Positions 40,000 to 42,549 of a DNA stretch of 64,000 nt are shown here, in pieces; the stretch's first letter is position 1; the number at the start of each line of letters is the position of its first letter. The notes under the pieces were generated by a model that saw nothing but the letters and a program-made list of their open reading frames with translations, did no database searches and was not told the origin of the DNA. Made by a program: the position numbers and the translations under genes. Location of the stretch: assembly GCF_012568645.1 (NCBI RefSeq), contig NZ_CP046192.1:187981-251980 (forward strand), written 5' to 3'. Source of the stretch: Enterobacteriaceae endosymbiont of Donacia simplex. Lineage in GTDB: Bacteria > Pseudomonadota > Gammaproteobacteria > Enterobacterales > Enterobacteriaceae.

Positions 40000-40632
40000 T
40001 TAACATTTTTTTTTATTAAAAATAATACTATCTACTAATCCATATTCTATTGCTTCTTGAGCAGATAAAAATCTATCTCTATTTGTATCTTTTTCAATAA
40101 TTTCGATAGATTTACCTGTATGTAATGACATAAGTTTATTTATAAAATTTTTAATTCTTAAAATTTCTTGAGTTTGAATTTCAATGTCAGTTACTTGTCC
40201 TTGATAACCTCCTATTGGTTGATGTATCATTACTCTAGCATGAGGTAGGCAAAATCTTTTTTTTTTTTTCCCAGAAGCTAATAAAAAAGCAGCCATGGAA
40301 CATGCTTGTCCTATACAAAGTGTACTAACATCTGAATTTACAAATTGTATTGTATCATAAATAGACATTCCTGATGTAATCACACCTCCTGGACTATTAA
40401 TATAAATAAAAATATCTTTATTTGAATCTTCTGAATCTAAAAATAAAATTTGAGCAACTATTAAATTTGCCATATTATCTTCAATAGGTCCTGTTAAAAA
40501 AATAATACGTTCTTTTAAAAGTCTGGAAAAAATATCATATGATCTTTCACCTCTAGAAGTATTTTCAATGACAATAGGAATTGTATTCATTTGATTTTTT
40601 TCAATATTTTTATTATTTTTTATATATAACAT
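40000..40632 (-). CDS. clpP: ATP-dependent Clp protease proteolytic subunit ClpP
   Basis: The tetradecameric serine peptidase. The 210 residues (E. coli 207) hold the triad Ser112 ([11 protein letters not shown]), His137 (MIHQPIGG) and Asp186 (DTNRDRFL). Between Ser and His lies an A13 mRNA run (40257-40269) coding the KKKK of [12 protein letters not shown], a spot prone to polymerase slippage. In E. coli tig sits between bolA and clpP; here only 43 bases remain, so trigger factor has been deleted from this place. Confidence 0.97.
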
Positions 40633-40675: not shown

Positions 40676-40951
40676 TTATATATTTTTAAATTTTTTCCAC
40701 TCAGATAATGTATAAGTATTTAATGATAATGAATGAATATTTTTAAATTTATTTCCTATAATATGGTATATTAATCTATGACGAGTAATTAGTGATTTAT
40801 TATTAAATAAATTGCTTACAATAATAATTTCAAGATGAGTTATCAAAAAATTATTTTTTTTATTATCATGATTCTGACTAGTATTATTAATTTTTAAATA
40901 TATAGGTTTTAATTTAGATATTATCTTATTTTCTATTCTTTTTATAATCAT
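40676..40951 (-). CDS. bolA: BolA family protein
   Basis: A small protein (91 residues, E. coli BolA 105) that works with monothiol glutaredoxin in Fe-S handling and has been linked to cell-shape control. The start MIIKRIENKIISKLKPIYLKI and the core SLITRHRLIYHIIGNK...HSLSLNTYTLSEWK follow E. coli BolA, including the RHR histidine. The C-terminal tail is shorter. It is the first gene of the bolA-clpP-clpX-lon run. nfuA, another Fe-S gene, lies close by on the other strand. Confidence 0.9.
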   Translation of the reverse strand: MIIKRIENKIISKLKPIYLKINNTSQNHDNKKNNFLITHLEIIIVSNLFNNKSLITRHRLIYHIIGNKFKNIHSLSLNTYTLSEWKKFKNI

Positions 40952-41017: not shown

Positions 41018-41803
41018 TTATAAAATATTTTCAATGTTAGACATTACTAACTTTATAATATTAGAATTACCAGCTAACATATTTGAAGAATTTTTATAAT
41101 TATAATGTCCAATAAAATTTGTTATTAATCCTCCTGCTTCTTTTATAATTAATTCGCCAGCAAGTAAATAATTAAAATTTTGTACATTATTATTAATATA
41201 ACAATCAATTTTATTTGCTGCTAAATAAGCTAAATCTAAAGATGTAGAACCACTTATTCTTATTGAAATAAAATTTTTTTTAAATAATTCAAATAAATTA
41301 ATATTTTGTTTTTTAAAAAAAAAATAATTAGTATTTAACGCAAATATTAAAATTTTTTTTTTATATATATCACAACGCAATTTATAACCATTTAATTGAG
41401 CGTTTTGTCCTCTTATTGCAGTAAATAAATCATTTTTTAATGGATCATATATTAAAGAAATTTCTGTTTTTCCTTGTATACAAATAGCTATTGAAATTGA
41501 AAAATGGGGTAATTTTTTTAAAAAATTAATAATTCCATCTATAGGATTAATAATCCATATAGTTTTTTTATATTTAAAAATAAAAAAATTTTCTTTATTT
41601 AAAATAACGATATTTTTAGAATATATATTATAAAATATTTTAGTAATTATATTAATTAAGTTTTTATTAATTTTTTTTATTAAAATATTACTATCATAAT
41701 TATTATTATATATATTTGCATTCTGCATCTCATAATTTTTTATAATAATATTACCAATATTACGTATTATACGTATAGCGATATTAAGCATTGGAGAACG
41801 CAT
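41018..41803 (-). CDS. suhB: SuhB, inositol-monophosphatase fold with metal site lost
   Basis: The 261 residues align without gaps at the ends to E. coli SuhB (267), from MLNIAIRIIRNIGN to GHYNYKNSSNMLAGN. In E. coli it has inositol monophosphatase activity and also acts with NusA in rRNA antitermination. Here four of the five acidic metal ligands are asparagine: Asn46 (E. coli Asp44), Asn69 (Glu67), Asn86 (Asp84, NPIDG for DPLDG) and Asn211 (Asp212, FNY for WDF). Only Asp89 (Asp87) remains. Catalysis should be lost, while the fold, length and frame are preserved. The gene is more likely kept for its ribosomal-RNA role than as an enzyme. Confidence 0.93.
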   Translation of the reverse strand: MRSPMLNIAIRIIRNIGNIIIKNYEMQNANIYNNNYDSNILIKKINKNLINIITKIFYNIYSKNIVILNKENFFIFKYKKTIWIINPIDGIINFLKKLPHFSISIAICIQGKTEISLIYDPLKNDLFTAIRGQNAQLNGYKLRCDIYKKKILIFALNTNYFFFKKQNINLFELFKKNFISIRISGSTSLDLAYLAANKIDCYINNNVQNFNYLLAGELIIKEAGGLITNFIGHYNYKNSSNMLAGNSNIIKLVMSNIENIL

Positions 41804-41973: not shown

Positions 41974-42549
41974 ATGTTAAAAATTACAAAATTAGCTCAA
42001 GAATATTTTTTAAAATTATTATCTAAAAAAAAGAAAAATATATGTATTAGAATTTCTGTTTTTATAAAAAATAATATATTTAAAGGTAATATTGCTTTTT
42101 GTGATATAAAAAAAATTAAAAATAATGATATTAAATTAAATTTTAACAAATTAAATATATTTATAGAATTTAATAGTTTAAAATTTCTAGAAAATATTAA
42201 AATAGATATTGTAAAAAAAGAATTATCTAAAAAATTAAAATTTATAGTTTTAAGTAAAAATAATATTACAATTAAACAAAATATACAAAATTTAAAAAAA
42301 GATATTAATAATTTTTTAAAAAATATAATTAATCCTAAATTATTACATCATGGTGGATTTATTATATTAAAAAATATAACAATTAATTATATTTTATTAG
42401 TAGAATTTCATGGTGGTTGTCAAGGATGTTCGATGAGTAATTATACTCTTCAAAATTGGATAAAAAAAGAAATATTATATAATTTTCCAGAAATTAAAGA
42501 AGTACATGATGTTACTTTACATAAAAAAAATGAATTATCTTATTATTAA
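41974..42549 (+). CDS. nfuA: Fe-S biogenesis protein NfuA
   Basis: It receives a [4Fe-4S] cluster and delivers it to client enzymes such as lipoyl synthase and aconitase. The 191 residues equal the E. coli length. The N-terminal A-type-like domain is weakly conserved; the C-terminal Nfu domain has the cluster motif Cys149-x-x-Cys152 (HGGCQGCSMSNYTL) and ends SYY as in E. coli. Clients in this window that carry Fe-S clusters include IlvD, and lipoate-dependent E2 proteins depend on lipoyl synthase. Confidence 0.96.
   Translation: MLKITKLAQEYFLKLLSKKKKNICIRISVFIKNNIFKGNIAFCDIKKIKNNDIKLNFNKLNIFIEFNSLKFLENIKIDIVKKELSKKLKFIVLSKNNITIKQNIQNLKKDINNFLKNIINPKLLHHGGFIILKNITINYILLVEFHGGCQGCSMSNYTLQNWIKKEILYNFPEIKEVHDVTLHKKNELSYY

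Follow-up and report, generated by a model that had tools for sequence, protein, structure and literature searches.

Why would an obligate symbiont with a 467-kb genome keep an intact gene for a phosphatase whose metal site is largely gone? The question is raised by suhB in the Enterobacteriaceae endosymbiont of Donacia simplex, whose genome consists of two contigs. We analysed a stretch of 64,000 nucleotides of its 461,708-base chromosome (positions 187981-251980; hereafter the window, whose own numbering is used below) and compared the gene across 24 genomes of the genus, the window's genome (G000) included. All belong to obligate symbionts of reed beetles (Donaciinae), an association reported to be 75-100 million years old (PMC12508126).

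The suhB locus and its metal ligands

In the window's list of open reading frames, suhB is an uninterrupted frame of 261 codons between nfuA and bolA. These two neighbours served as rate controls and clpP as a same-genome control; the names nfuA and clpP are ones we presume from the sequences of the frames.

41018..41803, minus strand: suhB, full-length open frame from ATG to TAA, encoding a predicted pseudo-phosphatase of 261 residues
40676..40951, minus strand: bolA, next gene downstream of suhB on the same strand (PF01722, E = 1.8e-20)
41974..42549, plus strand: presumed nfuA, divergent neighbour of suhB, with the motif GCQGC
40000..40632, minus strand: presumed clpP, with the motifs around its active-site residues present

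The product belongs to the Inositol_P superfamily (PF00459: E = 1.2e-31, 110.7 bits, gathering cut-off 27) and is orthologous to E. coli SuhB, as judged by phmmer matches to the PDB chains 2qfl (E = 1.8e-54) and 6ib7 (2.9e-54). The gene is the sole match to this SuhB in its genome, where CysQ was not found. Among the models listed, the protein scores best on the NCBIfam equivalog for inositol-1-monophosphatase, PRK10757, with 210.2 bits under a cut-off of 332. When the Prosite patterns are used as printed in PMC2834668, neither PS00629 nor PS00630 matches any of the 24 genus proteins, the window's included; among 79 named relatives, a set from which L188 was left out, PS00629 matches 79 and PS00630 matches 74.

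The original prediction described the frame and core motifs as intact, and the three motifs that it quoted (LPHFSISIA, RGQNAQLNGY and GELIIKEAGG) are all found in the uninterrupted frame. It further proposed that Asp44, Glu67, Asp84 and Asp212 of E. coli SuhB have each become Asn, with only Asp87 left. The phmmer alignment agrees: E. coli D44 (which we take to be a metal ligand), E67, D84, D87 and D212 stand opposite N46, N69, N86, D89 and N211, one of the five being kept. There is no gap between E. coli positions 44 and 87, and one additional window residue lies near position 212, where the partner depends on the alignment (Y in one MAFFT alignment, N in another) and is non-acidic both ways.

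41666..41668, minus strand: Asn46 (E. coli ligand Asp44), codon AAT; non-acidic in 24 of 24 genus genomes
41597..41599, minus strand: Asn69 (E. coli ligand Glu67), codon AAT; non-acidic in 23 of 24, Asp in G014
41546..41548, minus strand: Asn86 (E. coli ligand Asp84), codon AAT; Asn in 24 of 24 (23 AAT, 1 AAC)
41537..41539, minus strand: Asp89 (E. coli ligand Asp87), the sole ligand kept, codon GAT; Asp in 24 of 24 (23 GAT, 1 GAC)
41258..41260, minus strand: Arg182 (E. coli Arg183), codon AGA; kept in 24 of 24 genus genomes and 43 of 48 small genomes
41171..41173, minus strand: Asn211 (E. coli ligand Asp212), codon AAT; N in 11, Y in 9 and D in 4 of 24
41051..41053, minus strand: Lys251 (E. 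coli Lys251, a NusA AR2 contact according to PMC6614801), codon AAG; K in 22 of 24

In mycobacterial SuhB, Glu83, Asp104, Asp107 and Asp235 (human residues 70, 90, 93 and 220) are reported to coordinate the Mg2+ sites, and mutation of these side chains to cut activity dramatically (PMC2080633); they align with E. coli E67, D84, D87 and D212. The human change D90N is likewise reported to suppress activity, as is a change printed as E. coli D93N (PMC2834668). Further residues have changed in the window protein, namely Glu68, Thr89, Arg184, Glu205 and Trp211 (E. coli numbers), and E68, T89, E205 and W211 are gone throughout the genus.

Each of the 24 genomes carries one match to the window's SuhB, adjoined by bolA in all 24, and none of the 23 genomes readable whole has a broken suhB frame; match rows with an internal stop are frames that end a few codons early, at 258-260 residues. 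Residues at the Asp44 site across the genus are N, Y, H, I, K and L, and the Asp44 and Glu67 sites together drift through N, K, Y, H, I, L, C, S and D. Unlike these, Asn84 and Asp87 (E. coli numbers; window 41537-41548) are invariant in the 24 genomes. The four proteins with Asp at position 212, an alignment-dependent assignment, are those of the Plateumaris symbionts. Most simply, the ligand loss predates the diversification of the genus, throughout which the protein was maintained.

Ligand loss in other genomes and the CysQ control

In the window protein alone the loss is unremarkable, because of the 116 positions that are invariant in the 79 relatives merely 61 are kept and 55 have changed; retention of one ligand or none has P = 0.15, which lies within background divergence. 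A wider comparison was drawn from a family survey (392 genomes searched, 379 with a match to the family profile) and a survey of 49 small genomes of 0.2-1.4 Mb, selected for their size and mostly one per genus, of which 45 matched and which, from their size, are presumably those of symbionts. The 48 small-genome SuhBs considered below comprise 43 from the latter survey together with those of G028, G029, G030, G033 and G000. G141 and G146, where the matches are not SuhB, were excluded, and two same-genus pairs (G062/G207 and G080/G218) are included.

All five ligands are kept in none of these 48 proteins, compared with 79 of the 79 named relatives; in family genomes of 2.0-5.5 Mb the count is 8 of 8. 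Ligand cells are retained in 66 of 240 cases against a mean of 0.637 over the invariant positions (P = 0.0012, shared ancestry ignored), and in the 19 least diverged small-genome SuhBs in 43 of 95 against 0.794 (P = 0.00014, again with shared ancestry ignored). Scoring the ligands across relatives thus reveals a loss that is general in the small genomes examined. The natural separation of two functions that had been proposed for this lineage stands insofar as ligands are lost with frame, profile, selection and Nus partners retained, but the lineage is not special, since one ligand or more is altered in every one of the 48 small-genome SuhBs and in 5 of the 23 genomes with a match from other families of the order. 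These five, with their ligand states in the order 44, 67, 84, 87 and 212, are:

G036 (L347), 5.1 Mb: DKDNE
G044 (L045), 4.6 Mb: TENDE, in a protein above the PRK10757 cut-off
G055 (L355), 5.3 Mb: AEDDD
G038 (L046), 3.5 Mb: EKDDE
G056, 1.7 Mb: STEAA

Because the first four have genomes of 3.5-5.3 Mb, ligand loss is not restricted to small genomes. Among the 19 least diverged small-genome proteins the ligand states differ (AEDDD, DEDNE, DKDND, DENDS, NNDDD and others), which argues for repeated loss, and the sets of losses that share no ligand (AEDDD, DEDNE and DKNDD) imply at least three separate losses if none reverted. A quick tree of 98 SuhB rows needs four changes between intact and lost states, a lower bound from a tree in which 46 of 95 inner branches are left open and a composition bias was flagged; this tree cannot tell convergence from long-branch grouping and so cannot count losses. 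Among the papers listed by our literature search, which covered few subscription journals, none reports SuhB ligand loss in symbionts, and the word suhB is absent from the main text of PMC7289800 and PMC12508126, the two main papers on these symbionts.

A built-in control is provided by 14 small genomes that carry a second, near full-length match to the IMPase family beside SuhB. All 14 paralogues score best on models of CysQ, the 3'(2'),5'-bisphosphate nucleotidase, which like SuhB is of the Inositol_P type; 13 pass the TIGR01331 cut-off, and the one from G138 reaches 224.7 bits against 228.8. CysQ differs from the SuhB of these genomes in having all five ligands in 14 of 14 cases, or 70 of 70 acidic ligand cells kept compared with 25 of 70 in SuhB. 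The two proteins share fold family, genomes and base composition, and only SuhB loses catalytic residues. AT bias and drift alone therefore do not explain the loss in SuhB.

Selection on suhB and retention of its probable Nus partners

The gene suhB is under purifying selection in the genus. Under GY+F3X4, omega is 0.103 for suhB, 0.114 for nfuA, 0.208 for bolA and 0.049 for clpP, and under MG+F3X4 it is 0.196 for suhB and 0.198 for nfuA; of the 24 genomes, 17 contributed clpP to the codon sets and 23 contributed nfuA (some incomplete), and L007, whose start is masked, was excluded from the suhB set. For nine close pairs, NG86 gave suhB values between 0.16 and 0.55. Codon-model estimates for the Plateumaris subset, which play no part in the argument, did not move from 1.000 under F3X4 for either suhB or nfuA and were 0.281 and 0.183, respectively, under F1X4. 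By omega, bolA (window 40676-40951) evolves about twice as fast as suhB. The earlier view that suhB is not a decaying gene is thus supported by frame, PF00459 profile and selection alike.

Forty of the 116 invariant positions are kept in all 24 genus SuhBs, among them Arg183, Glu222, Trp81, Asn91, Tyr117, Asn136 and Arg141. Across the small genomes Arg183 is kept in 43 of 48 proteins and its neighbour Arg184 in 8 of 48. Residues kept throughout the genus, such as Arg183, are candidates for a working surface. An AlphaFold2 model of the window protein is of middling confidence (pLDDT 70.5, pTM 0.76) and weak at residues 26-44, 71-78, 92-98 and 159-167, near the active-site loops. Its top Foldseek match is 6ib8_B, from the complex of E. 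coli SuhB with NusA AR2 (TM 0.80). Because 30 of the 31 relatives in the input alignment had intact ligands, the model indicates compatibility with the fold rather than proof of folding.

The original prediction had asked whether nusA, nusB and nusG are retained. All 24 genus genomes have matches to NusA (with part of it masked in G003), NusB, NusG and Rho. The window's genome keeps NusA with AR2, NusB, NusG and Rho, and has boxA in both rrn leaders. 16S rRNA lies at two places in each genus genome. In the greA-side leader, boxA and boxC are in register with the E. coli leader. Of the leaders read, 19 of 23 on the greA side and 18 of 21 on the murI side contain the exact boxA core, and every one of the 24 genomes has it in one leader or both.

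Across the 49 genomes of the small-genome survey, 42 of the 43 that bear SuhB have an intact NusB frame, compared with 3 of the 6 that lack it (P = 0.004). In G141, a 1.2-Mb genome that keeps NusA, suhB and nusB have each been reduced to a remnant that contains many stops (L361, L358). The NusB frame is intact in the absence of SuhB in G106, G148 (where it falls under the family cut-off) and G178, and in G147 SuhB is accompanied by a NusB frame that is split. G178, with contamination 8, is a counter-example to strict co-retention, having no SuhB match despite NusB and a NusA with both acidic repeats. The splitting of nusB between frames in G147 (L360) and G146 (L359) reflects either decay or assembly error. 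A link between the absence of SuhB and the absence of AR2 was unsupported (P = 0.19).

The comparison gave no support for the AR2 interface as the feature that is kept. Of the AR2 contacts in the window protein, K251 is kept and L254 is Met, and suhB remains constrained in a Donacia clade whose NusA ends before AR2. In the symbionts of D. provostii, D. proxima, D. crassipes and D. cincticornis (G007, G015, G017 and G022; L126, L127, L128 and L120), NusA ends after the first acidic repeat, with no AR-repeat match in NusA of these four. Decayed AR2-like sequence with stops lies downstream of nusA in some members of the clade, whose fifth member, G003, has a masked nusA. Relaxed selection on suhB after the loss of AR2 was considered and rejected, omega being 0.092 in this clade (five sequences, G003 included) compared with 0.102 in AR2-bearing Donacia (nine). 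SuhB is also kept without AR2 in G099, G138, G169, G177, G233 and G308, which have a short NusA. Since AR2 has been lost while SuhB stays constrained, AR2 binding is not the only use of SuhB; on these sequences, the retained function is one that does not need AR2, in line with the RNA-dependent recruitment reported for E. coli. The original prediction had named interface decay or frame loss in relatives with the same changes as evidence against it. The former is seen, as the loss of AR2 in this one clade; the latter is not, in any of the 23 whole genus genomes.

Two further associations with AR2 were tried and discarded. Lys251, which is frequent in small-genome SuhBs and no better conserved than several other lysines, is K or R in 2 of 6 AR2-less against 35 of 42 other proteins (raw Fisher P = 0.019), a difference that is gone after matching for divergence (2 of 6 against 10 of 15, P = 0.33). 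Decay of boxA with AR2 loss was dismissed as well, since the murI-side core is kept in G003, G007, G015, G017 and G022, and the AR2-bearing G006, G008, G011 and G013 are without an exact core in one leader. We also observed, in the AR2-less clade, a greA-side boxC with GGAC for GGGC in G003, G007, G015 and G022 (L160, L164, L172 and L178), and a changed greA-side boxA in G003, G015 and G022.

Explanations for a SuhB without most of its ligands

The window's SuhB is, in our view, probably a pseudo-phosphatase that the symbiont retains for service as a Nus factor. The E. coli protein is reported to contact both the rrn leader RNA and the AR2 domain of NusA, to be recruited through the RNA rather than AR2, to let NusB/E enter the complex and to delay Rho-dependent termination (PMC6614801). 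The growth phenotype of E. coli suhB is reported not to be seen in IMPase-defective mutants (PMC4807359, PMC2834668); Buchnera suhB is described as unconnected to biomass in a metabolic model (PMC2649895); and suhB is listed as ancestrally essential in Enterobacteriaceae, with a footnote for strains missing the threshold (PMC11481867). By this account, SuhB would fold and join the rrn antitermination complex of RNA polymerase, NusA, NusB/E and NusG on boxA/boxC RNA. With the phosphatase no longer needed in the cell, the catalytic pocket would be free to change while the scaffold stays, and the same course may have been followed in the rest of the small family genomes studied here, where suhB persists.

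Drift alone, with GAT turning into AAT everywhere in an AT-rich genome of small population size and the ligand loss meaningless in a decaying protein, would explain the AAT codons at all four lost positions and the fact that the window protein taken singly lies within its background. We find it quite unlikely, because CysQ retains its five ligands in 14 small genomes, SuhB has lost its ligands more often than other invariant residues, a difference that is sharpest in the least diverged genomes, and omega is about 0.10 (0.196 under MG+F3X4) with no broken frame. Moreover, the neighbours ClpX, ClpP and NfuA keep the motifs sought, with one exception, the string RPG, which a search of ClpX did not find, and the codon for Asp87 is still GAT or GAC in 24 of 24 genomes. 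If the pocket has not simply drifted, its Asn-rich form might still bind metal, or might process some other phosphate ester through a different mechanism. The invariance of Asn84 and Asp87 across the genus fits such a changed enzyme, as does the residue that replaces Asp84: of the 39 genomes that have lost this ligand, 30 carry Asn in its place, whereas at twelve further conserved Asp sites Asn accounts for 113 of 295 losses, or 27-62% at the individual sites (Fisher P = 8e-6, with ancestry ignored and two of the twelve sites having only six losses), an excess which implies that the site is not free. It is nevertheless very unlikely indeed that an enzyme persists here, given that the Asp44 and Glu67 sites drift in the genus, that E68, T89, E205 and W211 are lost genus-wide, that different lineages have lost different ligands and that human D90N suppresses activity. 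These symbionts make riboflavin, and a part for SuhB as a phosphatase in that pathway came to mind from the title of PDB 9mmi; it was set aside because the ligands are gone.

A non-catalytic role outside rRNA antitermination, such as binding to the RNA polymerase holoenzyme, as is reported for E. coli SuhB (PMC6614801), would accommodate a SuhB that persists under constraint after NusA has lost AR2. This, too, we judge improbable: boxA and boxC are kept in the rrn leaders and the absence of SuhB accompanies decay of NusB, and since recruitment in E. coli is reported to need the RNA element and not AR2, the loss of AR2 is no argument against a Nus role. A bolder proposal, which we regard as rather doubtful but worth stating, is that the neutralised pocket is itself an adaptation, in which replacement of the acidic ligands, of Asp84 by Asn above all, would have yielded a metal-independent SuhB scaffold. 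The pocket, and perhaps the dimer, would then hold without Mg2+, leaving SuhB always in the state that enters the rRNA transcription complex. This proposal stems from the excess of Asn at the lost Asp84 and from the fixation of Asn84 in 24 of 24 genus genomes, among which the residues at the Asp44 and Glu67 sites vary; we also count in its support the report that dimerisation of mycobacterial SuhB is induced by Mg2+ (PMC2080633).

If SuhB has indeed been kept as a Nus factor after the loss of its enzyme function, the many lineages may show what remains once the enzyme is dispensable, namely a protein kept alongside the machinery of rRNA antitermination. That SuhB activity is dispensable is already known in E. 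coli; the repeated natural separation of the two functions would be new. The small-genome SuhBs are natural candidate separation-of-function alleles with which to test which SuhB surfaces matter, and the patchy loss of AR2, NusB and SuhB offers a way to study rRNA transcription in a minimal cell by comparison. We suggest that, in such genomes, the annotation 'inositol monophosphatase' should not be taken to denote an enzyme.

The closest known system is E. coli SuhB itself (6ib7, 6ib8 and 6tqn), with which the window protein shares about 36% identity, the same fold as predicted by the model (TM about 0.8), Arg183, Asp87, Lys251 and the core motifs, and with whose partners NusA, NusB, NusG, Rho and boxA it occurs in the same genome. 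It differs in that four of the five Mg2+ ligands are replaced, that Glu68, Thr89, Arg184, Glu205 and Trp211 are changed, and that with 261 rather than 267 residues it stops before the E. coli tail. A broader likeness is to the pseudophosphatases STYX and MK-STYX, which have a phosphatase fold without the catalytic residues and are retained for binding. Those proteins have the fold of protein tyrosine phosphatases and act in eukaryotic signalling, whereas SuhB has the IMPase fold, belongs to bacterial transcription and appears to have lost its catalytic residues repeatedly.
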